64,000 bases of DNA, taken from contig BLSF01000002.1 of assembly GCA_012862575.1 (NCBI GenBank), positions 434,001 through 498,000 of the forward strand, in the 5' to 3' direction. The stretch comes from Parietichytrium sp. I65-24A. Taxonomy: Eukaryota; Sar; Bigyra; Thraustochytrida; Thraustochytriidae. Both the position numbers and the translations under genes were made by a program. The notes below the pieces were generated by a model. The model searched no databases and had not been told where the DNA came from. It saw nothing but the letters and a program-made list of their open reading frames with translations. This document shows positions 22,488-63,987 of this stretch, piece by piece (within the stretch, counting starts at the first letter, position 1; each line of letters starts with the position of its first letter).

Positions 22488-25400
22488 TCAACCTGAGAAA
22501 GGAAGTCGGTCTTCGATTGCCAATACATACAAGGCGGTGCTATTCGCCGCGTCCTTGTAAAGGAAAGAGAGGCTAAAGCCTTGCTTCGGTGCTACGGATA
22601 TGTCACCGGGGACGCTGACGCGGCAAGTGAAAGCGCTACACGATATCTCTGCGGAGATACTTTCCTTATATTTACTGTGCAATACCCACGCAGAATATCC
22701 GTTTTGATTCCACTCGTTCCCTGAACGCCACGAAGCCAGGCTGCAGCTCCCGTTCCCTGATCCCAACTCGGTGTGTGGGACCAAGTTTCTGCAGTTTGCG
22801 AGCCGACCCTTGCTTTCTGGCTTGGAAATACTAATTTCTGTGCTGCTTCTGTTGACGACTCCAATCACAACTATCTTGCGCGCGTATAAGAACCGGTGTG
22901 TATTCCTCCAGTCAAACACAAAGTTCCGCATCAAGGTAATCCACGAATCCATGTTTGAGCACAAGTTTTGGGGGAGCAATCGATTCCTGTACTCTTCTAT
23001 GAGTGCATCACCACTTTTGAAGGAAACGGTGGGGAACTCCTCAGACTTGACTCGAGCTGAAGTAAGGGACAACTTGTTGCGCAGAGTCGCCGTAATGCCG
23101 AAGTTTGTTGTCCGGAAATTAACAGCACCAAGTACGCTTAGCATTGATTTGCTAAACTCGCTCTGGTAGTGCTTCTTCACGGCTGTCATTAGGGTAGCAA
23201 GCGATCCAATGAAATTGTGCTTGTCAAAGCTATCTAGTCGCAGGCTTGCGTCATCGACACGAATGTTCATCCGACTGAGAAGCCCGCCGCCCAGATTGTA
23301 CAGCGCGGCTGATTTGTCCTTGTCTGAGTGCTGCTGATAGCTCAGCTTGATTGCAATTTCAGACAAGTTCAAGTTGCGGAGACGAACCAAGTCGACTCGC
23401 CTTGAAGCGCTGGATCGGCCTGCGGAGAGGCGCTTTTCTCCATCGTAGCCTTGATTTGAGACCTCCAGCAAGTGAGCTTCTTGTAGAATTGCTGCATTCC
23501 GGCGGCCAGCCCATTTCACCGCGGCTTGGGCCACCACGCTCACGTTGTTGCTCTCCAAAACGCAACGGATCGAGTCAACGGCACTCTCTGTCGCTACAAC
23601 CTGGTCTTCTGTGTGAATAACAAGATTTTTCAACTCAATAAGCTCCAGAAGGAAGCTTTCGTCAATGTGCAGTATAACACGCTGCATGGAAAAGCCAACA
23701 TCCTCAAAGTCCAGCCCACGCTCAACGGAAAATTTCGCAGAGACTCGGAGCCGAAGAAACGGGTTGTTTGTCACGAAATTATCCTCCGCCTTTTGAATTC
23801 GCCCTGGCTTTCGGCGCCGTACGCTACCTTCACCAAGGACCACTTCTGGAAACAGTGGATCCGGCCGCCCGTCCTCTACTTGAAACGATCCGCACCCGAT
23901 TGTACACTCCAATCCAACCATGTTAGACTTCAAGACGAAGGAAAGAAGACCGAGCTCTAAGGATCCCACACGACGAGGTCGGCGCCCCACGTTGTGGCTT
24001 TCAGCTGGGGCTGTTGTGACCTTGAGGCTGCTGAAGTTTGCGCTACTGGCATTACTTGCCCCGCTTGACATTCTCGATAGAGTGCTTTGGCTCGTACGGG
24101 TCCTCTCCGTTGCGTAAGAATCGGCAGACAAAGTGCTTGTGCGTGAAGAGTGCCGGAGCTTTTCCCCTCTTGCTGCGATGACTCGGCGATGCCGTTCTGA
24201 GCGGGCCTTCGCGAAGCCGCGGTAGAAGACTGTAATATCGGAATGGTCCCGAAGAAAGATGAGCTGAATAGTGTTGACCCTCGCATCAAAGCCTACTTTT
24301 GGGAATTTGGACCAAAATCCCTTCACGGCCGGAGAATCCGGGGGCTCATCAGTGGCGCTCTCCTCTTGTTGGCCAACAACGGACTCGCTGTTCAAAAAAT
24401 GACCAGCGCGGAGCTCGCCAAGACCTGGCTCAGATAGCTCAACAACAATGGAACCAGCTGTATCGCCAACTTGAACCTCAAGAATGAAGTATTCCAATGT
24501 CATCCCGCGTCTTAGTCTACACGTTACTGCGCTACGACGCTTGAGAAACTCGCAAGGGTCAAAGGGGACAGACCACTCTGTTGGCTGCGGTCGCACGGTC
24601 GAGCTGCTTGACTCTTCGTCCAGGTGACGTTTTCCGAAGCGCACCTGGAAGTGCGGCTCTTTTGTTGTCACAACACCTGGAGGACACCAGAACGGAGCAC
24701 TAGAGCCCACGCCGACCCATACTTGCTGGTCAGTCTGATTTTTGGTGTTTACGACAGGTTGAAAGCAAAGGTCGCAACTCGTGTAATTTACGAACGTGTA
24801 TCTCGGAACGATGTTCACAAGGTTGGTGCGATATAGCATTCCTGGAGCGAGATCTACCGACACCCCGAGATGAAGCGAGTTACTCCGGCGGTCTTTGCTT
24901 GGAATAAATACCGCTTCACTCATTCCAGGCGTGCTAACCTCAAGAGGTGCTGGCGCTGATGAGCGGTCAAACCCCACGACTAACTTTCCGTCGTCTGGGG
25001 TATACATTATCAAATTCTGATTACCTTTTCCCATGTTCAACGGCGTGGGGTATATCCACGAGTCAGGGCCAGACTCGGCAAGAGCTGCTTCGGAGGAGAA
25101 TCTCAGTGCCAGCCACGTGCTATTGACGATCAAGTACTCGGAATAAAGCGTTATCATCAAGCCACCGCCCTCGGCCTCTTCCATGAGCACACAGACGTCG
25201 CAGCTGACTGTAGAGTTATCCTGAAACCTGATTTTGGGTTTACTGCTCGGTGCATCGCTTGGAGATGGGGACTCTGCAGAGGAGTCGCTAGCAGAGTTCA
25301 TTCGCATGTGCTTTCCATTTTGCGAGGCCATGTAGGTATCCTCTTCAAGCTCCTCGAATTCAGAGTCATAGTCAAGAGTGCCCTCGCTCCATGTGTCAAA

Positions 25401-28400
25401 CTCATCGTGCTCGCTTTTAAGAATCGCCCCGTCTGCTGTAGATAGTAGCGGCGGCCAGACTGGTGAGTTAGACTCCTCCTCTTCGGTGTCCGTTAAGCTC
25501 GAACTCACGTCGCCATCCACGGTCCGGTCTGACGGCATGCGGTCTAACTTGACTACTCTTTGCTTGCGTTGCTTGAGTGCTCGCTGCATAGTTGAGCTAC
25601 TCAGGTGTTTGACCGCTTTGGTCGTTCCCGTCAGAAAGAAAATGTTTCGATAACGATTGCGCCGCTTGGACACCACTTTGCCTGGTTTGCGCTTTATTTG
25701 CAACGGCAGACGCGAACTGAAGTTGGAGTGCTCCAGTTTGAAAGACAAACTGGCGACTCTAACACTATCTCTGGAGTGTGAACTTGACGGAACAGAGTGC
25801 AATTGCTGCTCCGCCCCGGCAGAGATATATCCAACGTTGATGGGCATATCGTTGATGATTGATGGGACATACTCTTCGAACCAAACATCCTGCGGTAGCA
25901 AATTGCGTAGGCGCACCTGTGGGTAAATGGTGAATATCGTAGTTACCCCATCCTCGTCCGGAGAAACGCTGGCACAAAGAAACCTTGTTTTCCCGTTTGC
26001 TAAGGAACACTCCAACTCTGTGTGCGTAATTGAGCCCCCAGTAGCTAATGACAAATGTATTGGACCGCTCCAGTCGTATGCTAAGCTAGCGCTCTCCTCC
26101 AGATGGGTGGGTAGCATAGGTTGCACCCTGATCTCAGCAGCATCTCCAAACAACACGGGAAGGTCCCGCGACTCTCCTGGCTGGAGACTCCAGTCCAGCA
26201 CTTTGGCGCTCGACCAGGTCGGAGCGTTTGCTAAGACTCGAATGCTGTAGTCCATCTGGTTTGAGACGCGTAAAAGTGACGACAAGACCAATTTTAGCTT
26301 GCGTGTTGTGTCATCTATCATCACATTCCAGCGAATTCGTAGGCCCCAGGGAGTCAAGTCTCTGTAGCTCGACCTCGCAATGAGTCTGGCAACGCCACCG
26401 CCGATTCGGTTCACAATCAAGCCTTCAAGAGTTTCCCACACGCGCGAGTAGCGCCCTGTCTCTGGGTCAGGAAAGAGGAAGCAAACGTTAATTGGCCGAT
26501 ATTGACAAAAGCCGCGGATGACACCACGTCCGGAACCGGTGTGGTGCTCAAACCCAAAGCAGCTATCTTCCGGATCAGCGCTCAGCAGAGTTGCAGAGGA
26601 AGGATCCTCGCCATCTTTCCAGTACAAAATCGGGAGCCCGGACTCATTGCGGATCATGAAAGCGCTGTTCGTCGAGTAATCCTCTAAGTTCCCGCCACCG
26701 CTACTGGCGGCTGCGCTCCTTAGCTTTCCTTTGATCGCAGTCAGCGACTCGTATTTGGTGAAGGTATTCCGCATCAACCGCAAAAACGTGTCGGAGAGGT
26801 TGCAAGTCATAGGATTTGGAAGATCAAGCGTAATGTCTAGTTCGCCATCGTTGTAGTACGTGCACGACGCATTGATGTGGCTCGGCTCGAGCAGCACCCC
26901 CCAGGCCCCAGCACGGAGATCATGGTAATACGCTCCTGTCAAGTCAACCTGAGCGCCACACACGTAGTTGCCATCGTTCGAACCGTTCAAAAAGGCATCC
27001 ATCTTTGCAACGACAAGATTTGCGAGAGGCATATTGCCACCTTCCAGATCATCTATGAGGTTTATGATGACCTTTTGAGTGCCAGCGTTGATCGAATCTT
27101 GCAATATGACAGGGTTATCGCTCTGAGAACGCAAAAACCGAAGCAGCACTGGGCCGGCTTGAGTTCTTAGCCTTTCCTGAATGAGAATAGGGTTTTCATT
27201 CGAAACAAAACACGAATTGATTTCCAGTAGGTAATCGCCCGCCTTGACTCCGAACTCCTCGCAAATACTGGACCCGACGCGCCCTTGTAAGCGCTTGGTT
27301 TGATGCAGCTCTTTGACGCGCAAAAAGCCGTGGTCCTGCTCAAGAACAACGCCAACATCTCTTATACCATTTGGCACGAGAAAGCAGATGTAATTTTCAT
27401 CAATATAGCCATCGTGCTCGGTGTGTGTCGCGCTGTTTCTCGAGGCTGCAGAGTTGGGCTCCACCAGGACTTCATCCTCGCTGGTGCTATCGTCATCGCC
27501 ATCATCTGACGTTATCGTGCGAGTCGAACTTTGGTACGACGACAACACGCGATTTAGAACCTTGCGGAAATTGTCTCGAGATTTCTGCTCGCGAATTTCT
27601 TTCAAGGACTGTTCACGCTCATGACCTCGAAGTTGCCCAGCAATCTGTTGCACCAAGCCTAAGTCTGCGGCGGAAATATATAGCTCCAGCTGCTTGAACA
27701 TGAGCTTTACTCGACGGGTGTGCACTTTAGATTTGAAACTGACCTCCTCATACTCATGAGAGAACACCAGCTCCGTGGGTTCTAGGAGCTGCTGAAACAC
27801 ATTTTCCTTGAAGAAGCGCGCCTCCGGCCCTGCGCCATCTGTTTGAGTCTCGGCAGTCGCCACGTAGGCTTGTATGTTCTCTAATTTCCCGGCCCAGTTT
27901 GAAAACTGCTTCGCGTCAGGGTCCCCGCTTTTGTCCCAGGTGAAATTGATGTCCGTGCGGACAGTGATCATCTTGGCGCTTGGCTTTTTAAAATCCTCAA
28001 TAAAATACAGGCAAGAGTCGCGAATATTGAACTCTCCTTTCCAATCATGCCTGTCGATGCCGTCTGTGTTTAAAGGAAGGGCCGAAGTGGTGGCACTAGC
28101 CTTGCGACGATCCGACTCTCCGAGCAATTCGCTCAGATCGCTTTGATGGGTAGCGTCTTTGGAAGGATCGGAGCTCACCCAGAACCGGATGACATCTGAG
28201 AGTAAATCCCACATAAAATAGCTCCGGAAGCTGTTCAGATCAAGCTGAACGGTCCGCTGACTGTGTACATAGCGAAAGTAAAACGCCATCAATCGCGTAG
28301 GTTCGCTAGTTTGCACTGTCTCAGCAGTTTGCCTCGGATTGGAGAGAATGAGAGAGCGGAACCAATTGGTGGAGGTATCAGAGCGCTCGTCAATAAGATC

Positions 28401-31400
28401 AAGAGAGTTGACGGAGATCTCCACAGCAGTGGAAGCAACTGGTGTTTCGCGAGAGATGTGTGCTCGAAACACGTCCATGGAGAAACACGCGATTCGGGAT
28501 TTCTCCTCCGCGACCGCCCCTTCTGCGACAAGCAGAGAGGCTCGCTCCAAGACAAGATCAATCACAAACACGAGGCCCTGAGAATCGTCTTGAACATCGT
28601 ACCCGTATTCCACAAAGACAGTTTGCTGTGCAGACGATTCGCCTTCGTCAAAGGAATTGTCAACCACCAGCCCCGATTCAACGATCGTGTCTGGTTCTAG
28701 TATCCCATCAATGCCGAGAGCGCTGTTTGGCGGGGGATCAGCCAGCAAATTTTCGCCCAGCACCCTTTGAATCAGCCAATACTGCTCCACAGCCAATGTG
28801 ATTGCAATCTTCGTAATTGACCCATCAACAGTTAGCTTGCCGGGCTCTCCTGTCACGATGTCAAGGTCGAATCGCACCGGCTCCTCGAGCAGAGGGGCAA
28901 CGTCCGTCAGCATCTTGAAACCACCCAGAGTTACTTTGGTTGTGTGGAGCTTCGAGTTCTTCTTCGAGGAGTCCACGTTAAAGGCTCTAAGATTTTCGCA
29001 AGTTGCGCTCAGGAAATGTGTCTCGTCGACATCCATGCTCGCAGGGACCACAATCTCGAAACGCTCCATTTTAATCTCGTACGTTGTGGTTGTCACCGAT
29101 TGCTGCTTCATAGCTGATTTGAGCACATCGCCTGCGTTGTAATCCTCCAGCAAGCTTTGACCCATCAGGGCGGTCCAAACCCCTTCACGTAGGTAGTCCA
29201 GCAGTTCTAAATAAATCTGGTTCAGGTGTAGATACTTGCTTGCCCCAATGCGCACGTCCACTACACTCAGCCTCTGTTTTTGAAACAATTTCACGGCGAA
29301 CTTTACCAATGAATCAGACTCTGATATTACACTGTACAACTTTCGTTCACGAGCTTCCACCCTAAAATTGCCGAGCCTGCCCTTCACTGACATGACATCA
29401 GTAACTTGTGCTAGTTTTACTTGAGCGTCAGTCATGCTCAGCTGAGCAAGAACAGCACGGTGTTTTCGAAGTGTGAGCGAAAGGGCCTTCATCGAGATCG
29501 AAAGTACAAATCGCATGTCCTCCTCTGCAACCTCTTCCGGCTCCTGAGCCAGATAACTTCCGTCGCCGGTGGAAGACGAGTCTGTCGATGACACTCTACG
29601 TAGCGATGAACTGAATTGGCTGCCACGATTGCTCACGGCGGTCGGACCGAATCTTGGAGACGGTGGCCCGGCCTTTACAGCAAAAAACTCCGGAAATTTT
29701 CTTTCGTAGTTTGCACGTAGTGCAACGATAGTGTCCGGATTCCAGTTGATCCAGAGCTTGTTGAAACTGGCAACAGCGAAGAGGGTACTCTTCGTTCTCT
29801 GGGGCTCAAGACGAACTAGTCTCCTTCTCTTTCCTCTAGCTGTCGATTCGGGACTAACTAGCATTCGCCTCCACCTAGCATTTATGGAAATGAGGTCCTC
29901 CTGACTGGCGTCACTTACGGCGTGCGGTTCCCGACTAGACACAAAGTATACGGAATGGTCAGGATTTGCAAACACGTCCACCACCTCGAAACTTGCAAGG
30001 CCCACGTGTGCGTAGGCAGTCCTCGCACGCTGAATAAATTCCAGTTCAAGACCTTTCAACGACCCTTGAAGGTACGGAACGTTTTGCCGACTGGACTTGG
30101 AATCGGTACATATGTTCACCTGTAAATTCTTCAACTTCACTTTGTAGTGAGTTGAGAACGCGATGGGCGCTTGTTGCTGTTGTTCCGCCACCGCAACAGT
30201 CATCTTCCAGGAGCTTTTCTCATCGGATTGGAAGGCTTTCAGGGCTGGGGAGTGCTGCGAGCTGTGCGAGCTCGTGCTATTGCTGCGCGCCCTGCCATCT
30301 TTACTTTCGCTAAGCGAATCGGGAAACTTGTCCTCGTCGATGAGGCTCGCATCAGGAATAATCAGCCACCACCAAGGTTCGGTGATCCACTGCTGACGCA
30401 GATCCCAGAGGAAGCGAATGTATGCTGGAACGACGGTCACATTTATCAAATCCAGGACCACCCGAACTTCTTGATTCATGCGGGTACTCAGAACGTGGCT
30501 CACAGATGCGTGAACGTCGAAATCGTCAACCACCCTGTACACAGAGCTTTCCTGGTCATGCATTGCGTGCTTTTCCAGCAGATCGAGGGATTGATAAAGG
30601 GCTTCCCAGGTCGCATTCGGAGGGACGGTCAGAATAACGCATTTGATGCGATGCACCGATACTTTCCATGTTCCAGAAACGTCATTCACGCTTGAATCGC
30701 TGTTCCCAGCATAGTCGTGATCGTTCTCAGACCAACCAGCACCAGCAAAGTCATTGCCTTCTTTGATGCTGTTCGAGCCATCGTCCGAGTCTTCTTGCTC
30801 AAGCTCATTCTCGAGTGCGTCAAAAAATGACTCATCTTCGGACTCGTTTGATTCGCCGCCGAAACTCCTTGATTGGTCATTTGAAAGGCTACTTCGTCTC
30901 AGTGCACCGCTATCACTATTTGTGGGACCGGCCGCTGGCCCTGGCGAAGGAGGCTCCTTATGAGTTGTCAAGTCATTTCTTTCGATTCGAAAATTACCAA
31001 GATCCAACAGAAGCAGTCTATCACCATTCGCAGAGCGCATGCCAGGATCTCGACTTAATAAAGGCACCAACAGAATAGGTGCAGCGACTGTGACGCGAAT
31101 ATCCATATCTGGGCGAGCGTTATTCCAAAGCGGAGAGGAATTCTGCTCAATTTGCTTTGTAAGCTGGTTGGTTTGCTCGATGTACGCTGCGAGCCAATTT
31201 GCGTCTGTAAAGAAGCTGTCTTGATCATCTTGCCCAGCAGCTGCGAGACCTTGGCCGGCTTTCGTCTGGAAAGGCAGAGATGTGTCTTTAAGAGCATAAA
31301 ACTGCTGCTGCTCAAACTCAGTCTTGAAACCCTCTTTGGACAGCAAGAAATACGAGAGCCCATTGACCCACCGAGGCCGTAAGATGATCTTGAACGGTAC

Positions 31401-33569
31401 CGCAGCTACCCGGCCATAGAGGAGTGGTTTTTTACCAGGGGTCATGTCGTCTTTCACATATGCAGGTGGGCTGTATTCAACTTGGATAGTGATCACATTT
31501 GATGAGTCCTGTTGCTTTGGAGCGAGAAATTTTTCCCGATGGAGTTTCGACTCTGAGGAGTCTTCCAGGGAAAAGGACTGGAGAACCAGGTTATGTTTCC
31601 AGACTCCTCCAAACCTGGCCTCGTACACATGAAATCCGCCAATTCGTGCACGGAACAAAAGCTTATTGTAATCGCTGTCAACCAGACATACCGTGCCGCT
31701 TCTCAGCCGAGACTTGAGATGTAAATGCACAGTGCCGTCAGGAATAGTATGATCCCGGATGGAATCGAAAAAGTTGACTGCTTCCACTAACTCGGCCTTC
31801 TCCTCTGCAGTGAGACGGTAGTCGTCAGGTTGGGGCGACGCATCGCTGTGAACAGCCCCGTTAGCCGAAGTGTTACTCTGCGAAGCGAACCAGCTGCCTA
31901 GCCAATTGCGGGCTCCAGATGCAGCCGCCGAGTCCCCCCCGGCGTTCTTAGAAGCGTTCTGCAGCTTCTTTTGTTCCGCTATGGTTTCTGCAGCTGCCAC
32001 CGCGCGATAAGCCAGCGTGTTTTCCACCTCGAGCTCGTCCTCGAGAGGCTGCAGCTTTTTCTGCAACTCTAAAATCTCGTGATTTGGCTCGTGTTCTGTT
32101 CCGCTTTTCTTAAATGTGTTCAGCTTGGAGCTGAACTCTTTGTACAAGGTGATGTATTGGTCACGAAGACGGACCTGACGTACTAGCTCTAGCCAGTCAA
32201 CGCCTCGATTCTTTGCTGTCAGCTCGAGGAGCTTCTCGTCCTGCTTCTCCAGGTCATTCTCATCGTTTGCATCGCTGGCCCTCCGAGCCGCCTCTCGGGA
32301 AAGTTTGGAGGCAGTGTTGTGGATCCGAACGCATGTATAAGCATACCTCCACCAGCCTCTTGGATCCTCTACGGGCGAGTCCATCGGACGATGCTCTTTG
32401 TAGATGGAAAACGCTGAGGCTTGCGTCACAGAACGCTGAATGGCAGATATGCATGCGTATTGAGTCTGCGAAACTGTAATCTCAACCTGGTCAAAGTCAG
32501 CTTCGAGCATGTATCGCGGCTTTGTGAAATCGGAGGATTCATTTTTGGCTATCAAAGCGTGTGGGGACGACGGCTGGAGAACAAAGTGGTGCAACTTTCG
32601 GTATCGAATGGCGCCGTCTAACGGTTGTCCCGTCTCCAAATATTGCTCCTTAAACTCGTTTCTCCAAATGCCTTTCGACAGGAGGTAGACAAAGTCTAGC
32701 TCAGAGCGTTTCGTTGCAGAGTCGTGATGGTTGCACATGAGCGGCTTCTCCAGGTCCAAGTAAACGGCGAGAGACTTGAACTCGACATTTTTGTACAAGG
32801 TTTGTTTGGCCTCGTCGGTGTCCTTGTCGCGCTCTTTAAAGCGCGGTTGGCCATTTTCATCGCAGGTGAACGTGCAGAACTCTTCAAATGTGAGACCATA
32901 GGAGAATTTGCTTCCGGATATGCTTAGGTAGTCCTCAAACCGCACGTGAACGTTCGTTACAGTGATTTGCAGATTGTCTAAAATCTTTGCGCCTAGTCTG
33001 CTCCAAAAGGTCTCGTTAGTCTGATTCGGGCGGTGTCCCTCCTCGTCCTCATCTTGCTGCCCAGCCGCGAGTAAGCTTGCCCATCTCAGCCTAATTCGCT
33101 TTTCCACAATACGCTGAGGCACTTTCTTTTTTCTCCGTTTCCGTACATTTTTCACAACTACGCCATCGGATTCCGCCTCCCCATCGGAGCCGCCACTTGC
33201 CTCGCCGCCATCTCCACCGTTCGAGCTTGCCAAATCATTACCTCCGTCGACGTCTTCATCGCCATCTTCTTCCTCTTCAAACTCCCCTTCGGATGATAAC
33301 TTTGCCAGCAAATAAACCCCGTCAATAGACACTTTGACTGGCTCCGAGCCCAGCTTGGTCCACGGGACCAACACCTGGAACTTTTGAATGTGACCGCATT
33401 GGACCTGTAAAGGCAATCGCAGCGAGTCGAGCGCCTCCTGCTTCAGTTTGAGCCCTTCTAGGTCGATTTTACCTGCCCATACGGCCACCTTGAGGTTCTC
33501 CGAGTTGATCCCGTCTATGTAGCGTCCAAAGTAGTCCTGCAGCGCATTCAAAAGAATGCGCTTGGCCAT
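22488..33569 (-). CDS. VPS13: VPS13-family bridge-like lipid transfer protein with an embedded PDZ-like domain
   Basis: VPS13 proteins form long hydrophobic grooves that move phospholipids between organelles at contact sites. This one has 3693 residues in a single exon, a typical length for the family. The start is the ATG giving MAKRILLNALQDYFGRYIDG; the upstream GTG in the same frame is ignored. The N-terminal chorein segment is clear (NLKVAVWAGKIDLEGLKLK, then LRLPLQVQCG). Between about 2060 and 2150 lies a segment with PDZ features: GIRDVGVVLEQDHGFLRV, EEFGVKAGDYLLEINSCFV and PVLLRFLRS. From about 2200 to 3000 come VAB/SHR-BD-like repeats (FMIRNESGLPILYW, VRLRNLLPQDVWFEEYV, EYLIVNSTWLALRF, RYTFVNYTSCDLCF). 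The last 130 residues (from IVVIGVVNRSSTEISI) form a separate beta-rich module I cannot name. The usual ATG2-C/PH end is not recognisable by eye. Acidic, disordered insertions are frequent. Confidence 0.9.
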   Translation of the reverse strand: MAKRILLNALQDYFGRYIDGINSENLKVAVWAGKIDLEGLKLKQEALDSLRLPLQVQCGHIQKFQVLVPWTKLGSEPVKVSIDGVYLLAKLSSEGEFEEEEDGDEDVDGGNDLASSNGGDGGEASGGSDGEAESDGVVVKNVRKRRKKKVPQRIVEKRIRLRWASLLAAGQQDEDEEGHRPNQTNETFWSRLGAKILDNLQITVTNVHVRFEDYLSISGSKFSYGLTFEEFCTFTCDENGQPRFKERDKDTDEAKQTLYKNVEFKSLAVYLDLEKPLMCNHHDSATKRSELDFVYLLSKGIWRNEFKEQYLETGQPLDGAIRYRKLHHFVLQPSSPHALIAKNESSDFTKPRYMLEADFDQVEITVSQTQYACISAIQRSVTQASAFSIYKEHRPMDSPVEDPRGWWRYAYTCVRIHNTASKLSREAARRASDANDENDLEKQDEKLLELTAKNRGVDWLELVRQVRLRDQYITLYKEFSSKLNTFKKSGTEHEPNHEILELQKKLQPLEDELEVENTLAYRAVAAAETIAEQKKLQNASKNAGGDSAAASGARNWLGSWFASQSNTSANGAVHSDASPQPDDYRLTAEEKAELVEAVNFFDSIRDHTIPDGTVHLHLKSRLRSGTVCLVDSDYNKLLFRARIGGFHVYEARFGGVWKHNLVLQSFSLEDSSESKLHREKFLAPKQQDSSNVITIQVEYSPPAYVKDDMTPGKKPLLYGRVAAVPFKIILRPRWVNGLSYFLLSKEGFKTEFEQQQFYALKDTSLPFQTKAGQGLAAAGQDDQDSFFTDANWLAAYIEQTNQLTKQIEQNSSPLWNNARPDMDIRVTVAAPILLVPLLSRDPGMRSANGDRLLLLDLGNFRIERNDLTTHKEPPSPGPAAGPTNSDSGALRRSSLSNDQSRSFGGESNESEDESFFDALENELEQEDSDDGSNSIKEGNDFAGAGWSENDHDYAGNSDSSVNDVSGTWKVSVHRIKCVILTVPPNATWEALYQSLDLLEKHAMHDQESSVYRVVDDFDVHASVSHVLSTRMNQEVRVVLDLINVTVVPAYIRFLWDLRQQWITEPWWWLIIPDASLIDEDKFPDSLSESKDGRARSNSTSSHSSQHSPALKAFQSDEKSSWKMTVAVAEQQQQAPIAFSTHYKVKLKNLQVNICTDSKSSRQNVPYLQGSLKGLELEFIQRARTAYAHVGLASFEVVDVFANPDHSVYFVSSREPHAVSDASQEDLISINARWRRMLVSPESTARGKRRRLVRLEPQRTKSTLFAVASFNKLWINWNPDTIVALRANYERKFPEFFAVKAGPPSPRFGPTAVSNRGSQFSSSLRRVSSTDSSSTGDGSYLAQEPEEVAEEDMRFVLSISMKALSLTLRKHRAVLAQLSMTDAQVKLAQVTDVMSVKGRLGNFRVEARERKLYSVISESDSLVKFAVKLFQKQRLSVVDVRIGASKYLHLNQIYLELLDYLREGVWTALMGQSLLEDYNAGDVLKSAMKQQSVTTTTYEIKMERFEIVVPASMDVDETHFLSATCENLRAFNVDSSKKNSKLHTTKVTLGGFKMLTDVAPLLEEPVRFDLDIVTGEPGKLTVDGSITKIAITLAVEQYWLIQRVLGENLLADPPPNSALGIDGILEPDTIVESGLVVDNSFDEGESSAQQTVFVEYGYDVQDDSQGLVFVIDLVLERASLLVAEGAVAEEKSRIACFSMDVFRAHISRETPVASTAVEISVNSLDLIDERSDTSTNWFRSLILSNPRQTAETVQTSEPTRLMAFYFRYVHSQRTVQLDLNSFRSYFMWDLLSDVIRFWVSSDPSKDATHQSDLSELLGESDRRKASATTSALPLNTDGIDRHDWKGEFNIRDSCLYFIEDFKKPSAKMITVRTDINFTWDKSGDPDAKQFSNWAGKLENIQAYVATAETQTDGAGPEARFFKENVFQQLLEPTELVFSHEYEEVSFKSKVHTRRVKLMFKQLELYISAADLGLVQQIAGQLRGHEREQSLKEIREQKSRDNFRKVLNRVLSSYQSSTRTITSDDGDDDSTSEDEVLVEPNSAASRNSATHTEHDGYIDENYICFLVPNGIRDVGVVLEQDHGFLRVKELHQTKRLQGRVGSSICEEFGVKAGDYLLEINSCFVSNENPILIQERLRTQAGPVLLRFLRSQSDNPVILQDSINAGTQKVIINLIDDLEGGNMPLANLVVAKMDAFLNGSNDGNYVCGAQVDLTGAYYHDLRAGAWGVLLEPSHINASCTYYNDGELDITLDLPNPMTCNLSDTFLRLMRNTFTKYESLTAIKGKLRSAAASSGGGNLEDYSTNSAFMIRNESGLPILYWKDGEDPSSATLLSADPEDSCFGFEHHTGSGRGVIRGFCQYRPINVCFLFPDPETGRYSRVWETLEGLIVNRIGGGVARLIARSSYRDLTPWGLRIRWNVMIDDTTRKLKLVLSSLLRVSNQMDYSIRVLANAPTWSSAKVLDWSLQPGESRDLPVLFGDAAEIRVQPMLPTHLEESASLAYDWSGPIHLSLATGGSITHTELECSLANGKTRFLCASVSPDEDGVTTIFTIYPQVRLRNLLPQDVWFEEYVPSIINDMPINVGYISAGAEQQLHSVPSSSHSRDSVRVASLSFKLEHSNFSSRLPLQIKRKPGKVVSKRRNRYRNIFFLTGTTKAVKHLSSSTMQRALKQRKQRVVKLDRMPSDRTVDGDVSSSLTDTEEEESNSPVWPPLLSTADGAILKSEHDEFDTWSEGTLDYDSEFEELEEDTYMASQNGKHMRMNSASDSSAESPSPSDAPSSKPKIRFQDNSTVSCDVCVLMEEAEGGGLMITLYSEYLIVNSTWLALRFSSEAALAESGPDSWIYPTPLNMGKGNQNLIMYTPDDGKLVVGFDRSSAPAPLEVSTPGMSEAVFIPSKDRRSNSLHLGVSVDLAPGMLYRTNLVNIVPRYTFVNYTSCDLCFQPVVNTKNQTDQQVWVGVGSSAPFWCPPGVVTTKEPHFQVRFGKRHLDEESSSSTVRPQPTEWSVPFDPCEFLKRRSAVTCRLRRGMTLEYFILEVQVGDTAGSIVVELSEPGLGELRAGHFLNSESVVGQQEESATDEPPDSPAVKGFWSKFPKVGFDARVNTIQLIFLRDHSDITVFYRGFAKARSERHRRVIAARGEKLRHSSRTSTLSADSYATERTRTSQSTLSRMSSGASNASSANFSSLKVTTAPAESHNVGRRPRRVGSLELGLLSFVLKSNMVGLECTIGCGSFQVEDGRPDPLFPEVVLGEGSVRRRKPGRIQKAEDNFVTNNPFLRLRVSAKFSVERGLDFEDVGFSMQRVILHIDESFLLELIELKNLVIHTEDQVVATESAVDSIRCVLESNNVSVVAQAAVKWAGRRNAAILQEAHLLEVSNQGYDGEKRLSAGRSSASRRVDLVRLRNLNLSEIAIKLSYQQHSDKDKSAALYNLGGGLLSRMNIRVDDASLRLDSFDKHNFIGSLATLMTAVKKHYQSEFSKSMLSVLGAVNFRTTNFGITATLRNKLSLTSARVKSEEFPTVSFKSGDALIEEYRNRLLPQNLCSNMDSWITLMRNFVFDWRNTHRFLYARKIVVIGVVNRSSTEISISKPESKGRLANCRNLVPHTELGSGNGSCSLASWRSGNEWNQNGYSAWVLHSKYKESISAEISCSAFTCRVSVPGDISVAPKQGFSLSFLYKDAANSTALYVLAIEDRLPFSG

Positions 33570-34870
33570 TTTCACGTGCTACCTTCGCCGTTCACTACTT
33601 TTCCTCCCTTCTCTGCGCAACGCAGAGTCCCAGCGTGCAGATGTGGGAAGCAGGGCAACGACCAAAGAGCGCAGACGCCGCTGCTCCTACGGCGCCTTCT
33701 TTGCACTACCAGAGACGCCTTTTTCTCAGACTCATCAACGTTGCGCCTTTGCCCTCCCTCTCTTTCCGCTTCGCTTGCTTGCTTGCTTGCTTGCTTGCTT
33801 GTTTGCTCCTATTCTACTCCCTCTTCTTCCTTCAGATTTTCCCAAGCCCCGTTCTTTGATCCTTGTTTCTTTTCCCTGTTTCCTCTCTCTCGGTCGTCAG
33901 GAGCCTTTTGGTCAAAGGCGAACTGGAGTCTGCTTCTCCTGCCCGCACTGTTTCACCAATTTCACCAGTATCACCCTCAAGACGTTTCTGTTGTGCGAAT
34001 GAAAAGAAAAATGAAAATGAAAAATGATACGAGTTGACGAGTCCAGCGACCGAGGAGCGCGTTCTTTGTTCATCGTATCGTTGGGATGGTTCCCGTGAAG
34101 GAGGGTTTGGAGGGTTGTTGATTTGAGCAAGGCAAGTAGTCAGCGCTGGACGAACGCTCCCCTAGCGCCTTCTTCTGTGCTGTGAATGAGAGAAAGTTCA
34201 AGTTCGGCTTCACGATTGATTTTGAACACAGATCTCGGTTCGGTTTTCCTTTTTCTCTTCCTTCTACTCTATTCTTCCTTTGTACACAAAATTGAAGTTC
34301 CCTGCGGTTCTCTTGTTCCCCGACTTTCTGCAATTGGCGGTTTCAACTAAGAGTCCACCCAGGGCTTTTCCTACACCGCTATTTATCCCTGCGGCTATGG
34401 AAGTAGTTGTGCACTCTTCGGGTTACTACTTACTGTACCGGTACTATAACTCACATGTCAGTACTACTGATTGACTGAGAACTGTGAGAGTGGGAATAGT
34501 GGGAAACTTTTTTCCCCTCACACGCCTTCCCTCACATCCGTCAAATTACGCTCCAGTCGCTGGGCGAGGACCCAGCCTGTCCTCGCAAGAGGAGCCTCCC
34601 TGAACCACTGACGTTGCGGTCCCTCACAGGAACCCGAAGAACCGAAGAACCGAAGAACCGGAGAACCGGGGGTTCTGCTCTCCGCGGATCGCTCCAGAGA
34701 AACCAACATATCGTCCAATCGTAATCTGTAATCTTGTCCACCTTGTCCACCTTGTCCCGCCAGGTGCAACGTCGGCGAAAGATAACTTTGAATTGGAGAG
34801 AGGTAAAGAGAAAGAGAGGAAGGAACAACGGGAAGGAGGGAAAGAGAGGGAAAGAGAGGGAGCGGCGCAG
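33570..34870. other. Divergent intergenic region between VPS13 and the DOCK-like gene
   Basis: About 1.3 kb with no gene. It contains seven to eight copies of GCTT at about 33776-33805, an AAATGAAAATGAAAAATG run near 34006-34026, and a TACTGTACCGGTACTAT word near 34431-34447. Four near-copies of GAAGAACCG lie at about 34634-34665, with three copies of CTTGTCCAC just before 34760. A GAAAGAGAGG-rich leader at 34800-34862 runs up to the next start. That leader is open in the DOCK-like frame but starts there only from TTG. Confidence 0.5.
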
Positions 34871-39136: not shown

Positions 39137-40600
39137 TTACTCGTAAGCTCTGTAGAATAGGATGAAGGCCATGTCGAAATCGCCTCCTCCATGAAGCTGG
39201 CCAATATCTTCTTCTTTACAGTTGGAGGCGGTCTCATCATCGAACACAACCCAATTGTCTCCGCTTTGTTTGACCCACGCCATGTAGTGGCCAGAATCTG
39301 AGGCCCTTCCTTTGTGAGTCGTCACTGCAAAGAGCTCGTAGGTGCCGCGGAAATCAGATGGGATCCCCACTCCGGCTGTTCTTCCGCTCTCTTGCATAGA
39401 CATCCGCATGGCCTCACGGAGCTCAGGATCATCGTTATCTTCCTCCATGGGATCCTCCTTTGCAGCGCCCTCGCCATTTTTGGCCATTTTATCACGGAGA
39501 TGCTTATCACGCGGGCCTTTGAGGATGCCTTGCAGTTCCTTGTCGCAAAAGTCAAAGACGTCCAGCTTGTGCGCGAACTTGACCGGCTTGAGAATCTTAC
39601 AGTTGACACCTTGATGATCTCTGCTATCTGGTGTGCGCTTCCAGAAGAACCGATTCAATTGAACGGTAAGGTACTGAGGGAGACGATTGATACGACGGGT
39701 TTGCTTAAAAAGGGCGTTGCGGCCCAGTACATCAGAGTTCTTTTCAATTTCTGACTCGAGCCCGAGCTTCAGACCTTGCTCCAGGGTGGCAACATCTGAG
39801 GTGATGGTGCACACCAGCCTGCGCTGCACATCAGTTCCGTCTTTGACTGGCTCATCCTCACTTTCCATGCACTTCATCTCAGTGGAGAAGTCTATGCCGA
39901 ACAGTGCCTCAATTGCATTTTTCGTGCTGCCGAGGCTCATGTTCTTTGGTGCGACCGTAAGTCTGCTGCTGAGCGCGCTGAGCAACTCGTTAAAGAATTC
40001 GTCCGCGTCCTGCTGAGCGTATCCACCGCGAGGGGTTTGTTCAGCAAAGCGCGGAAATACTGCTCTGATGACCGAGACAAACTGGTGAGGAGTGACGTAA
40101 GTGTCTGACTTGTCCATGTCGTTGTAAAGGTTCTTCAAAGACACCACCACCTGCTCCGACATATCTCCGCGGCTTCCGCCAGGCGCAGCCTCGAGCGACT
40201 CTCTGAGCTCCGGGATAGCCCTGAGGCACTGAACCACGGAGTTGAGGTAGCAAGTGTTGCCCAAATTTGACAAACCGGGGGGGTCCACTGCCGCCACCTT
40301 TTGTTTGTCCTGGGTGGTCATGTCTTCCACAAAGATAGTTTTCTCCTCTGGAGGTTTTGGGATCCCGGTGGAGGTGCCCATCATCGCGACGAGCACATTG
40401 TCCTTCCACGGCAGCCTGGCCAGGTCCTGGTCGTCCTTCAGTGTCCCTTTCCACAGGTCCTTGGCCATCACCTTCTGTCGCTCCACTGGCACCCCGGTCA
40501 GGCCGTAGATCACCTCCTTTAGCGCGACGGCACCCTTTTTCGGGTCTACCTCGACATCGTCGAAAACCTGCTTGTTCCACTTGAGCTTGATCGTGCACAT
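39137..40600 (-). CDS. USP14: Ubiquitin carboxyl-terminal hydrolase USP14/Ubp6
   Basis: A 487-residue proteasome-associated deubiquitinase that trims ubiquitin chains from substrates docked on the 19S cap. Residues 1-75 form a ubiquitin-like domain (MCTIKLKWNKQVFDDVEV at the start), which in the family binds the proteasome. The USP catalytic domain begins at about 108. The Cys box GLSNLGNTCYLNSVVQCL has the nucleophile at Cys117, and QQDADEFFNELL is the QQDAxEF segment. The His box SGHYMAWVK has the general base near His438, followed by NWVVFDDE with the third catalytic residue. The length matches human USP14 (494) and yeast Ubp6 (499). Start ATG at 40600. The gene is tail-to-tail with the DOCK-like gene (135 bp apart). 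Confidence 0.95.
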   Translation of the reverse strand: MCTIKLKWNKQVFDDVEVDPKKGAVALKEVIYGLTGVPVERQKVMAKDLWKGTLKDDQDLARLPWKDNVLVAMMGTSTGIPKPPEEKTIFVEDMTTQDKQKVAAVDPPGLSNLGNTCYLNSVVQCLRAIPELRESLEAAPGGSRGDMSEQVVVSLKNLYNDMDKSDTYVTPHQFVSVIRAVFPRFAEQTPRGGYAQQDADEFFNELLSALSSRLTVAPKNMSLGSTKNAIEALFGIDFSTEMKCMESEDEPVKDGTDVQRRLVCTITSDVATLEQGLKLGLESEIEKNSDVLGRNALFKQTRRINRLPQYLTVQLNRFFWKRTPDSRDHQGVNCKILKPVKFAHKLDVFDFCDKELQGILKGPRDKHLRDKMAKNGEGAAKEDPMEEDNDDPELREAMRMSMQESGRTAGVGIPSDFRGTYELFAVTTHKGRASDSGHYMAWVKQSGDNWVVFDDETASNCKEEDIGQLHGGGDFDMAFILFYRAYE

Positions 40601-59704: not shown

Positions 59705-62248
59705 ATGAGTGCGACGCCTTTGTTCGCTTATTTGTATGCGTCGCCGTTAACGCAAAAAGGTGGCGATGGACGTGTGGTAGAGAGCACTGAGGAGCTCGAG
59801 CCGCTCAACATTCGGCGCGAAGGGGAGGAGTTCGTGAGCATGTTTGAGGATAATGGCATGCAGGTCCGGCTTAGGAGATGTGTGGCGTGCAGAGCAGAGC
59901 TACAAGGTCTCTTGTCAGAGCCGGCGCGCGGAGCAGAGAGCGTGTCCGAAGGCAGCTTCACTGGCCCGGACGTGATACACTTCACAGGCCACGGTTTCCC
60001 GGATGGGTTTCTGGCTCTTGAAGATACGTCAGGGAATTTGGACAGGCTGAGTACGAATGACCTTCAGCTCATGCTGAAAAACGCAAACTGTCGCATCCAG
60101 CTCGTATTTGTTTCGGCGTGCTTTTCGGAAGACACAGGAAACGTCTTTGTACAGGCAGGAGTTCCGCACGTCGTTGCGGTAAGAAGAGATCTGCAGGTCG
60201 CGGACAAAGTGTCCAGCGAATTTGCTCTGAAATTTTATTCGGCTCTTTTATCCGGTGCGACCGTCAGCGCTGCTTTCTCGCACGCGCAGAATTGCATCCA
60301 TCTAACACCTGGACGCGACGATGCGTGGCGCGAGCGGCAGCGACAGAAATTTCTCTTACTTCCAAACGACCAATCCGTTGATCACAACGTGACTATTTTC
60401 GATCAAGTTCCCGTTGGAAGATATGTTGACGAGTCACCCCCCTCTCCGCTAAATTCCTGTATTGGGGTAACGTCCAAGTTTGTAGGTCGAAGAGTACTGA
60501 TGCAATCCGTTGTGGAAACTCTTGTGGATCCGGACTCAATTGGAAGCTGTGTAACAATGTATGGCCAGCATGGGGTCGGCAAGTCGTCTTGCGCGGTGTA
60601 CATCTGCGAATTTTTGTGCGAGAGGAGGCAATGCAAAGGGGCATACTTTGTTCCGTTCCAGAGGAGGAGAGTGTCCTCGCGGTCCTCTTCAGAGGAGCTG
60701 CAAACTGATCTGATTAGGTGTATTCGCTCGCAAGCCCCAGGTGGAAGCGGAATCAGCACCGTTGAGACTCTTGATGAGCTTGTCGAAGCTATCAACCGCT
60801 ATACACGGCAGCTGCGAACAAGCGGCAAGCTCATCCTGTTGCTGGATGGTTGTGACGAGTGGATTGGGCAGCAAAGTATGACCTCGCCACATTCAGCAAG
60901 CGCACTACATGTGTTTCGCAGCGTAGCAAATGCCATTATGCAGAAATGTAGCCAAGTCATGATCTTGTGCACGAGCAGGTACCCTTTGCTGAGGGGCGAA
61001 GTATACGGTGAGACAACTTCCGTGAGCTCGAGATTTACCGAGCTCAAGTTTGAAGTAGGTCCTCTAGCCGACACGCATGCGGCTCAGTTGCTGGTGAAGC
61101 TGAGCAGGCGGCAACTGTCAGAAAACGAGCTGTCTGGAAACAGTAGCTCGGCTTTGGTAAGTCTGATGTCCACAGAGCAGAAACTTCACCTTTTGGCGAA
61201 GCATCCAGTCTTGCGGGCGTGCAAAGGTCATCCTTTAATTATAGGTCTGATCGCAGAGAAACTGAGCAGTTCAAGCCTCAACAATCTTTCAAGCGACGCA
61301 ACGACTGCCTGGAAACAGCTCGAAGATGATATTCCGTCCCCTCCGCTTGCCCCTGCGACCATCAACGTACAGTACACCACGTCCCACAAAGCAATGCCGC
61401 CGAGCTCATCAGATATGATCCATCTTGAAAACAGCCCCTTCTCACACAGTAGTAGTGGTGATCTGGGCCGGAGTTTGGAGAAATTGAGCATCTCCAAAAT
61501 CCCATCTTTCGACCTTCCCGAGCCCTCACAACCATCCATCAAGACCCCTTGTCATCGGGCGAGTATCCCAGACTCAGTGCAGTGGTACCGAGCTGAGCTT
61601 GAGGAGCTCGACAACCTACTGTCAACAATCGGGCAAGGCGGGATGGACGGAGTGGACTTGTGGCCGTTGGTGTACCCGGTATTAAGCAAGGTGATTGAGC
61701 GTGACTTTGTTTGCAAAAGAGACAAAGTCAATCGTCGTTTCTCAGACTCAGACTTTGATCGTATGCGCCACATCCTCCTCCGAAACGGTCGACCAAAAAC
61801 CGTGGAGCTGGCCAGTGCTGCTTTGATAGCCTTCTGGAAGTGGCTTGAAGGCACCATGCGCACGCTAGAGGCTTTTTCGCAGTATTGGAACAGCTCTGTT
61901 ATATTTGGACTCGTGTCCAAAGAATCCGTCAACGAGAGCCTCCGCAAGAGTGGGCCGGGGTCGTTCATGATCCGCATCAGTGAGAGTTGTGCCGGGCAAC
62001 TGGCCCTTGCCGTTTCACTTCCCAATGGACAGGTAATTCACTCACTCATTACCCCAGTCCCGGGAGGGAGTGGCAGTCACCAGAAAATGGTGCCTACGTC
62101 CGCTCCGATGGTCCAGGTCGCTACAAGTACCGGGCTCAAGGTTTATGGGTCGTTGAAAGATTTCATTTTGAGTTGTGCCCCATTGAAGGATCTTTGGCCA
62201 AACATCGATAAGTCAGCTGCATTGCAACCTATCGATGCTTTCATGTGA
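59705..62248 (+). CDS. CHAT protease - STAND NTPase - STAT-type linker/SH2 fusion protein
   Basis: An 847-residue single-exon protein. The start is the ATG giving MSATPLFAYLYASPL, which begins the first beta strand of the CHAT fold. CHAT (1-230) is a caspase-like protease domain with His96 in HFTGHG and Cys139 in VSACFSED as the catalytic pair, followed by VPHVVAVRRDLQVAD and GATVSAAFSHAQ. The STAND-type P-loop NTPase (about 260-560) has FVGR at its start and Walker A GQHGVGKSS (Lys293). LILLLDGCDEW is the Walker B (Asp381-Glu385) and ILCTSRYPLL the sensor strand. A serine-rich linker (about 565-640) follows. Residues of about 650-740 resemble the STAT linker domain, with FWKWLEGTMRTLEAFSQYWN at about 710-729. 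The SH2 domain (about 730-835) has GPGSFMIRISES with the phosphotyrosine-binding Arg757 and ends LKDLWPNIDKSAAL, as STATs do (LKYLYPDIPKDKAF). No tyrosine follows it. Likely role: tyrosine-phosphorylation-sensing, NLR-like protease. Confidence 0.85.
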   Translation: MSATPLFAYLYASPLTQKGGDGRVVESTEELEPLNIRREGEEFVSMFEDNGMQVRLRRCVACRAELQGLLSEPARGAESVSEGSFTGPDVIHFTGHGFPDGFLALEDTSGNLDRLSTNDLQLMLKNANCRIQLVFVSACFSEDTGNVFVQAGVPHVVAVRRDLQVADKVSSEFALKFYSALLSGATVSAAFSHAQNCIHLTPGRDDAWRERQRQKFLLLPNDQSVDHNVTIFDQVPVGRYVDESPPSPLNSCIGVTSKFVGRRVLMQSVVETLVDPDSIGSCVTMYGQHGVGKSSCAVYICEFLCERRQCKGAYFVPFQRRRVSSRSSSEELQTDLIRCIRSQAPGGSGISTVETLDELVEAINRYTRQLRTSGKLILLLDGCDEWIGQQSMTSPHSASALHVFRSVANAIMQKCSQVMILCTSRYPLLRGEVYGETTSVSSRFTELKFEVGPLADTHAAQLLVKLSRRQLSENELSGNSSSALVSLMSTEQKLHLLAKHPVLRACKGHPLIIGLIAEKLSSSSLNNLSSDATTAWKQLEDDIPSPPLAPATINVQYTTSHKAMPPSSSDMIHLENSPFSHSSSGDLGRSLEKLSISKIPSFDLPEPSQPSIKTPCHRASIPDSVQWYRAELEELDNLLSTIGQGGMDGVDLWPLVYPVLSKVIERDFVCKRDKVNRRFSDSDFDRMRHILLRNGRPKTVELASAALIAFWKWLEGTMRTLEAFSQYWNSSVIFGLVSKESVNESLRKSGPGSFMIRISESCAGQLALAVSLPNGQVIHSLITPVPGGSGSHQKMVPTSAPMVQVATSTGLKVYGSLKDFILSCAPLKDLWPNIDKSAALQPIDAFM

Positions 62249-62736: not shown

Positions 62737-63987
62737 TCAGTACTTGCGACGTTTCACTGCAGATACTGGCTGAGAGTCAGTTTTTACAAATTTGCTCATC
62801 AAAGGTTGAGCTTTGGATGCAATCTTCTCCCGCACACTCTGCGAGCTCACTGCGAACGGATTATTACGCGAAGGTGTTGGCTTTGAGCCCCCGACTGTCT
62901 TCTTAAAGCCATTCACTTTTGCCCCTGCTGGACCTGTCAGCCGGCCACGAAGCGACGGAGATACGCTGGCCCCATCGTTGTCGCTTTCACTTTCGTTTTC
63001 TGACATTCTTGCGGACGCGAGCATCTTTTTCCTCTTCCCTGTGACCTTGTCGGACGGGTTGGCTGCAGATACGGATTCGTCGTCGGATGAATTTCGCATA
63101 GTGGCGGCTTCGACTTTCCGTAACAAGCCATCAGTGCCAGCAGAGAATCGCTTTCGGGACCCGTTCGCGACGCTTGATCCAGTGGTGATCGGTGAAGTTG
63201 CAAGTGCGTGCCGAGGCAAGCTTTCAACGCTCCCAGTGGCGTTTCCCAACGTTGGTGGAGCGACAACACGTTTGTGTGGCTGTTTGATTAGCCGTGGTTG
63301 AGGCAGATTTGGCTCGTTTTCATCCTCGCCCTCGCCCTCACTCTCGCTTTCACTCTCGCTTTCGCTACTCTCGCTTTCTTCCTCTTGCGCGGCCTCCTCA
63401 TCTTCGCGTTCTCTGAGTTTGTGAATCCGCTCCATTTTCTCAAGAAGAGTTGCGTCTGCGTTTGCTCGCTGCGCTTGTATGACAGCAATTTGAACGGACT
63501 TGGTCAAGCGCAATCGGCGTACCAGCCCCAGAGCGCGGTTAGATTTTTGGAGCTTGACCGCAAGGATAATGTGTTTAAGGTGTTTTGCATCGAGCATGGC
63601 CTCCTCTTCGCGAATCTTTTGGTCTTCAATTTCCAAGGAAAGGTTCTTTGAGCCCCACTTTATTTGCTCCAGGACAAGGTTAGACTTTATTGCCGCTTCC
63701 TCCAGCTGGTGCTTTAAAGCTCCAGTGCTGTCGGACATGCCGAGCAAGGGCACAAGTAAGTCGTGACTTGCCAAAACGGGACGCGGAAAGGTCTCCGGGC
63801 TCCTCTGGCCGCGTTTCAAGGACACCGCCATGATTTTTTTCATCTGAACGCTCACAGGCCACACTGACACACCTGTGCGACGCTGAAGTGCTGCCAAATC
63901 CAGAAGTGGCACCCATTCCCAATTCATGGCGACACTCAATCCAAGCAGCATCCCTTTGCTATCTACGAAGACAGGCATGTGCCCCAT
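62737..63987 (-). CDS. Acidic/basic low-complexity protein, possibly 5'-incomplete
   Basis: I do not recognise this protein. The frame encodes 416 residues from an ATG 13 bases inside the right edge. It remains open to the edge, so more N-terminal sequence or an upstream exon may exist. The first 75 residues are hydrophobic and ordered (MPVFVDSKGMLLGLSVAMNW, then EWVPLLDLAALQRR). Residues 90-200 are a charged helix or coil (HQLEEAAIKSNLVLEQIKW; KMERIHKLREREDEEAAQE). A Glu/Ser run (SESESESESEGEGEDENE) follows at about 205-230. The remaining 185 residues are disordered with basic clusters (GSRKRF, GKRKKM, AVKRRKY) that fit nuclear localisation. Acid/serine stretches of this kind are common casein-kinase-2 targets in chromatin and RNA-processing proteins. 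Confidence 0.65.
   Translation of the reverse strand: MGHMPVFVDSKGMLLGLSVAMNWEWVPLLDLAALQRRTGVSVWPVSVQMKKIMAVSLKRGQRSPETFPRPVLASHDLLVPLLGMSDSTGALKHQLEEAAIKSNLVLEQIKWGSKNLSLEIEDQKIREEEAMLDAKHLKHIILAVKLQKSNRALGLVRRLRLTKSVQIAVIQAQRANADATLLEKMERIHKLREREDEEAAQEEESESSESESESESEGEGEDENEPNLPQPRLIKQPHKRVVAPPTLGNATGSVESLPRHALATSPITTGSSVANGSRKRFSAGTDGLLRKVEAATMRNSSDDESVSAANPSDKVTGKRKKMLASARMSENESESDNDGASVSPSLRGRLTGPAGAKVNGFKKTVGGSKPTPSRNNPFAVSSQSVREKIASKAQPLMSKFVKTDSQPVSAVKRRKY

Follow-up and report, generated by a model that had tools for sequence, protein, structure and literature searches.

Proteases of the CHAT type that are controlled by a further module have been described both in a CRISPR system and in fungi. 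In TPR-CHAT/Csx29, the protease of the type III-E CRISPR Craspase, the catalytic His and Cys change position in response to an allosteric signal, and the sensor is made up of TPR repeats together with Cas7-11 and the target RNA (PMC10028731). In fungi, a TPR-CHAT protease of Podospora activates a gasdermin, and the CHAT proteases that control gasdermins are joined to an NLR/sensor layout whose named sensors are WD40, TPR, ANK or kinase-like, SH2 being absent from the available portion of the source text (PMC12881547). Here, a gene is described from a stretch of 64,000 nucleotides (hereafter, the window) of the thraustochytrid Parietichytrium sp. I65-24A (assembly GCA_012862575.1, contig BLSF01000002.1, positions 434,001 to 498,000), in which a CHAT domain, a P-loop NTPase, a low-complexity spacer, a STAT-type linker and an SH2 domain follow one another in a single open frame (59705..62248, + strand; coordinates are those of the window). 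The product (P0001) resembles the CRISPR protease in its CHAT His/Cys pair, and the fungal proteins in the joining of a eukaryotic CHAT domain to an NLR-like layout, but its sensor is of a different kind.

To our knowledge, Csx29 contains neither an NTPase nor an SH2 domain. The linker and SH2 domains of P0001 are shared with Dictyostelium STATa and animal STATs, from which the protein differs in its protease and NTPase front, in the lack of a match to a DNA-binding domain and in having no tyrosine after the SH2. STAT dimers form by exchange of the phosphotyrosine tails that follow their SH2 domains. Phosphorylation near the C-terminus and a dimer have been described for these proteins (PMC4206453, in the part available). 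A precedent for an SH2 domain on a protein of the death or immunity type is provided by Death-like/TRADD-N proteins of the sponge Amphimedon, in some of which SH2 is listed among the variable C-terminal domains; these differ from P0001 in having Death-like and TRADD-N domains in front, CHAT does not occur as a whole word in the available text, and the type of SH2 is not stated there (PMC8195603). The original prediction, made from the letters of the window, knew of no described protein joining CHAT, STAND and SH2; none was found in searches of the open-licence literature, and an earlier description elsewhere is possible.

Results

Gene structure and domain architecture

The gene runs from an ATG to a TGA with no internal stop and encodes 847 aa, compared with a longest frame of 319 codons in mononucleotide shuffles of the gene (n = 200). 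The TTG at 59567 merely marks where the frame opens mechanically; the ATG at 59705 was preferred because the N-termini of relatives fit it (P0003 starts MGAATFSYFFASPLT, compared with MSATPLFAYLYASPLT). The original prediction had placed a CHAT His/Cys pair, Walker A and B motifs, a STAT linker and an SH2 domain in one unbroken frame, and this was borne out by Pfam, PDB and profile matches. The motifs it had quoted were recovered as well (HFTGHG at residues 92-97, VSACFSED at 136-143 and GSFMIRISES at 752-761, with FWKWLEG...YWN...FGLVSKE also present). The presence of CHAT, NTPase and STAT-type linker-SH2 in one gene is thereby confirmed at the level of sequence.

The CHAT caspase-like protease domain (residues 66-198; 59900..60298) was recognized by Pfam PF12770 with E 8.9e-14 and 52 bits, against a cut-off of 24. 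Moreover, P0001 was matched by the PADLOC model SAVED_CHAT (E 6.1e-5), and in a single-sequence search of the PDB its front matched 8tl0, named as a CHAT domain-containing protein (E 1.5e-4). The predicted catalytic histidine H96 (HFTGHG; 59990..59992) and cysteine C139 (SACFS; 60119..60121) were both kept in all 12 family proteins, or in 12 of 13 when a paralogue from the same genome (C21, see below) was included, in which the histidine is replaced by S and the cysteine is lost. By profile and predicted catalytic pair, P0001 qualifies as a CHAT (caspase clan CD) peptidase, for which proteolysis is predicted.

A NACHT-like P-loop NTPase core (about residues 258-530; 60476..61294) was matched by the Pfam families AAA_16, NPHP3_N, NACHT and NB-ARC, all between residues 258 and 464, with E 3.7e-7 for AAA_16 and 2.8e-6 for NPHP3_N over the P-loop. 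Only NPHP3_N was above its cut-off, AAA_16, NACHT and NB-ARC falling below theirs, and NCBIfam contributed a single weak match in the protein, with an orc1/cdc6 model, located within the NTPase. Conservation was read from A2, a profile and alignment of 13 sequences (12 CHAT+SH2 family proteins and the C21 paralogue). The Walker A motif (GQHGVGKS, residues 287-294; 60563..60586) has its lysine, K293, in 13/13 rows, and the Walker B motif (LILLLDGCDE, residues 376-385; 60830..60859) has the aspartate, D381, in 12/13, the remaining row having E. Further on, CTSR (residues 422-425; 60968..60979), read from the sequence, is presumably the sensor-1-like arginine motif, and GHPL (residues 508-511; 61226..61237), a GxP-type motif that also occurs in relatives, is taken here as the GxP motif of the STAND helical part.

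The NTPase is separated from the C-terminal domains by a low-complexity, probably disordered spacer (residues 537-622; 61313..61570; 47% S/P/T/Q/N/G/H in residues 537-636), whose length varies strongly across the family. A STAT-type linker domain follows (about residues 645-732; 61637..61900), assigned from a linker-only profile (A4, built from 8 of the 13 A2 rows with the SH2 excluded) and from weak Pfam STAT_linker matches in relatives (P0011, E 0.0078; P0008, E 0.016; both under the family cut-off). When A4 was searched against the PDB at E up to 0.1, the single match was Dictyostelium STATa, in its own linker (sequence E 0.0069; matched stretch E 0.015).

The STAT-type SH2 domain (about residues 733-835; 61901..62209) was matched by Pfam SH2 at residues 734-784 (E 1.3e-4; 22.4 bits vs. 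a cut-off of 21), while a single-sequence search of the PDB placed Dictyostelium STATa at the top (E 1.6e-7, residues 708-784), followed by STAT5, 6 and 1. Profile A2 retrieved 256 PDB sequences at E up to 0.01; among the best 60 of these 256, the first 21 were STATs without exception, the STATa match (E 3.8e-25) spanning both linker and SH2. A leave-one-out C-terminal hidden Markov model scored P0001 at E 2.5e-47, compared with E 1.9 for the best of 200 shuffles. In the phosphotyrosine pocket, the predicted binding arginine R757 (FMIRISES; 61973..61975) was present in 13/13 A2 rows, as were S759, E760 and a K or R at position 739, with S761 in 11/13. The C-terminus thus answers to a STAT-type linker and SH2, and phosphotyrosine binding is predicted for it.

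SH2 was the sole STAT-related Pfam family with a match in P0001 when E values up to 1 were allowed, those of the STAT coiled coil and DNA-binding domain being among the unmatched. From R757 to the C-terminus there are 90 residues. The final tyrosine, Y814, is situated within the SH2 itself, 57 residues beyond R757; among the 13 motif-bearing proteins of the family (see below), only P0014 of Scytosiphon has a tyrosine at a distance of over 90 residues beyond the SH2 arginine. Since no tyrosine follows the SH2 of P0001, the protein cannot form a STAT-style tail dimer, and the domain should read phosphotyrosine on another protein, in trans.

Family members and phylogeny

A protein search with P0001 listed five proteins, four of them with SH2, and a search with profile A1 listed 34. 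When residues 635-847 were used alone, 1850 candidates and no matches were obtained, known relatives being missed too, which shows only the limit of that search. The SH2 core motif G-x-F-x-x-R-x-S-E was present in 13 of 37 proteins (P0001-P0037), and 12 of these 13 passed both the CHAT and the SH2 cut-offs of Pfam; in the exception, P0019, the model starts inside the CHAT domain and no Pfam SH2 was found at E up to 0.001. The same domain order was observed in P0002 (40% identity over 100% of P0001) and P0003 (32% over 97%), and P0003, P0004 and P0012 are transcriptome proteins labelled 'type:complete'. The named members come from Hondaea fermentalgiana (Labyrinthulomycetes) and Scytosiphon promiscuus (Phaeophyceae), both Stramenopiles, in agreement with the origin that had been guessed from the DNA. 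A partial model from Discosporangium (P0016) stops without SH2. Taken as predicted domains, CHAT, NTPase and STAT-type linker-SH2 form a family conserved in order, with the active-site and phosphotyrosine-pocket residues kept.

The Hondaea protein P0007 resembles P0001 in carrying CHAT and SH2 (44% identity over 42% of P0001). It is represented by a database model of 634 aa and differs in that, when aligned, it is missing the second half of the NTPase as well as the spacer. Its public name is 'Signal transducer and activator of transcription A', which is likely a misannotation that hides the protease.

In the phylogenetic analysis, the closest relatives of P0001, Hondaea among them, formed a six-row group with support of 100/100. 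The tree of 40 rows contained a 15-row group (94/89) that included 13 SH2 rows together with P0013 and the partial P0016, both without SH2, while the C21 paralogue fell outside it, on a long branch. With its rows as labelled, this tree required 4 changes, of which at least 3 were forced by well-supported branches. In a reduced tree, from which 13 of the 40 rows were dropped (the C21, C23 and C48 genes, P0006, P0013, P0016, P0030-P0032 and P0034-P0037), all 13 SH2 rows were placed on one side of a branch whose support was only 75/73. On these trees, the SH2 joining may have had a single origin.

The C21 paralogue of the host genome (L015:4067-6550) is an open frame of 828 residues with CHAT-like, NTPase and SH2 regions. 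It keeps the Walker lysine and the SH2 core (GVFTLRFSES), has S at the position of the catalytic histidine and no cysteine, and its CHAT score of 15.5 is under the cut-off of 24. Its SH2 rests on the family profile (leave-one-out C-terminal profile, 2.9e-17; best of 200 shuffles, 3), because no Pfam SH2 was detected at E up to 0.05 and the single-sequence PDB search returned no STAT. By analogy, this paralogue could damp or scaffold the active protein, as a possible pseudo-protease regulator.

The CHAT-NTPase chassis with other partners

The same pair of domains was found with other partners, with TPR repeats behind it (P0015, P0021, L055 and L057), LRR in front (P0018 and P0024) or SAM in front (P0025). 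When prokaryote genomes were scanned for a single conserved pattern, seven loci emerged, of which four were examined: L055 (Anaerolineae) and L057 (Theionarchaea) have the order CHAT-NACHT/NB-ARC-TPR, and L056 and L059 combine CHAT with NB-ARC, with no TPR within the frame scanned. Like P0001, L055 and L057 present CHAT and then a STAND-type NTPase, collinear at 26-27% identity; they differ from it in that the GxP motif is followed by a segment not found in the SH2 members and then by TPRs, with no SH2. The scan of viral contigs, also with a single conserved pattern, matched 10 stretches, none of which was a relative, and a viral origin was rejected on that basis.

Two further loci of the host genome were noted on the same chassis. 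In the first (C23, L013:3183-5942), a single frame carries an EGF-like region, a membrane span identified by eye, CHAT and NTPase, and the product looks like a cell-surface receptor with the CHAT-NTPase part inside. In the second (C48, L014:1-6454), armadillo and LRR repeats and then CHAT-NTPase, with CHAT just below the cut-off, are spread over two adjoining frames that are perhaps one gene with an intron.

Phosphotyrosine signalling in the host genome

Phosphotyrosine signalling has been described as a triad of writer, eraser and reader (PMC4053784, in the part available). In the host genome, a kinase (C4, L028:1-2358) carries the tyrosine-kinase signatures HRDIAARN and VRWAAPE. Among the best 60 of its 265 PDB matches, 57 were tyrosine kinases by name, and since the other three are different kinases (CTR1 twice and B-raf once), its assignment to the tyrosine kinases is likely without being certain. 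No match in this genome was obtained with the exact DNA pattern of HRDLAARN. A protein tyrosine phosphatase with the signature VHCSAGVGRT was also found. Pfam SH2 matches occurred in five places belonging to four genes, namely that of P0001, C58, C7 and C78, the last of which, a long SH2 protein, we take to be SPT6. The C58 product (L016:3383-5104, - strand) has two SH2 domains, a tyrosine-rich C-terminal tail and weak Cbl-type matches, and is a candidate phosphotyrosine partner. C7 (L017:3022-5385) has SH2 and then TPR in one frame, its SH2 being above the cut-off in one scan and just under it in another. Searches of the host genome for STAT_linker and STAT_bind gave no match anywhere, controls included, and are no evidence of absence.

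The surroundings of the gene are those of an ordinary eukaryotic locus, with HOOK-like (13534-15138, + strand), VPS13-like (22488-33575, - strand), ubiquitin hydrolase (39137-40600, - strand) and Ctf4/Mcl1-like (62737-63987, - strand) frames in the window. Rfam and ARAGORN scans of the window gave no match.

Discussion

By domain order, P0001 displays an NLR-like layout of effector, NTPase switch and C-terminal sensor. Our reading, which we hold to be somewhat better than an even bet, is that the protein combines a cysteine protease of the CHAT type with an NLR-like NTPase chassis, that its sensor is the STAT-type linker-SH2 unit, and that proteolysis would be gated by phosphotyrosine. In such a sequence of events, a tyrosine kinase would phosphorylate a partner protein, on which the SH2 of P0001 would dock in trans; docking would gather several copies of P0001 or release the NTPase, ATP-driven assembly would bring the CHAT domains together, and the assembled CHAT domains would cut a substrate. 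By analogy with other CHAT and NLR proteins, the likeliest outcome would be regulated cell death or a defence response, and a non-lethal signalling cut is possible. A more specific version was also considered, in which thraustochytrids and brown algae have a phosphotyrosine-gated caspase-like protease in one polypeptide, where the linker-SH2 has replaced the winged helix and TPR sensor of a prokaryote-type CHAT-STAND chassis and phosphotyrosine docking itself clusters and fires the protease; this version is tentative, and the chances are slightly against it.

A number of observations weigh against phosphotyrosine-gated proteolysis by P0001. The tyrosine-kinase loop was found in only 1 of the 30 kinase loci examined (143 matches scored; in 7 of these 30 the pattern applied detected no loop), and the tyrosine phosphatase signature in 1 of the 4 loci scanned. 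The gasdermin family PF04598, a possible type of substrate for the predicted protease, was not found in the host genome, which is a weak negative. The loss of the catalytic pair in C21 implies that the architecture can persist without proteolysis. As regards the domain assignment, P0001 itself had no Pfam STAT_linker match at E up to 1, so that the linker call rests on the profiles and on the two relatives below the cut-off.

A further observation against phosphotyrosine gating concerns the NTPase. The STAND switch of the original prediction was upheld as regards Walker A, Walker B and the GxP motif, all of which are present, but its completeness is less certain. In STAND proteins, a winged helix would sit after the GxP motif. 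The segment at this position in P0015, searched among 44 proteins, matched L055 (8e-27), P0017 (9e-19), L057 (9e-8) and L059 (6e-5), and was not found in the SH2 members (best, P0004 with E 0.28), in which the GxP motif is followed by a low-complexity spacer and then by the STAT linker. The TPR-type P0021 was likewise unmatched, and no Pfam winged-helix family matched the segment at E up to 1 (for L055, among the best 25 of 29 families); 'winged helix' is therefore our own label for it. Because the segment was not found in the SH2 members, the switch in P0001 may be incomplete. Either the linker-SH2 may have replaced the winged helix plus sensor, or the segment may have diverged past sequence recognition.

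The alternative that fares best is that the SH2 is a targeting module and not a gate, which would bring an otherwise regulated CHAT-NTPase protease to a receptor or kinase complex that has been phosphorylated, with activation left to the nucleotide state or to another partner. The very variable spacer and the post-GxP segment missing from the SH2 members make a rigid allosteric coupling less obvious, as this alternative would have it; however, the linker is kept alongside the SH2 across the family, a feature for which an SH2 that served targeting alone would have no use, and we regard this alternative as unlikely. Somewhat less probable again is a regulated, non-lethal proteolysis, in which a signalling or developmental substrate would be processed under phosphotyrosine control, in the manner of Csx29 cutting Csx30. 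According to the available text, Csx29 cuts Csx30 once and Csx30 holds a transcription factor (PMC10028731), and the missing PF04598 match would fit such an outcome, but the ties of fungal CHAT proteases to cell death, as far as that source is available, speak against it (PMC12881547).

If the protein were a divergent transcription factor of the STAT kind, in line with the public name of P0007, its STAT-type linker and SH2 would be accounted for; yet the STAT DNA-binding and coiled-coil families, unmatched at E up to 1, the lack of a tail tyrosine and a CHAT-NTPase front with its catalytic residues kept make this very improbable, and such a factor was rejected for P0001. An artefact, with two adjoining genes joined by misassembly or annotation, has next to no likelihood and is refuted by the single open frame in the DNA and by the same order in the 12 proteins passing both Pfam cut-offs, which come from several sources and include three transcriptome proteins labelled complete.

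If P0001 is indeed a CHAT protease gated by phosphotyrosine through its linker-SH2 unit, a phosphotyrosine reader would sit directly on a caspase-like protease, and tyrosine signalling would lead to proteolysis without an adaptor chain. The STAT linker-SH2 unit would then be used outside transcription, and in the host genome the protease would be tuned by a catalytically dead paralogue. In stramenopiles, this STAT-type unit is present without the body of a STAT transcription factor. It stands in an NLR-like layout, where phosphorylation within the cell itself would be what the sensor reads, and not a ligand bound by way of repeats. A coupling of phosphotyrosine signalling to regulated death or defence becomes a testable question in thraustochytrids and brown algae.

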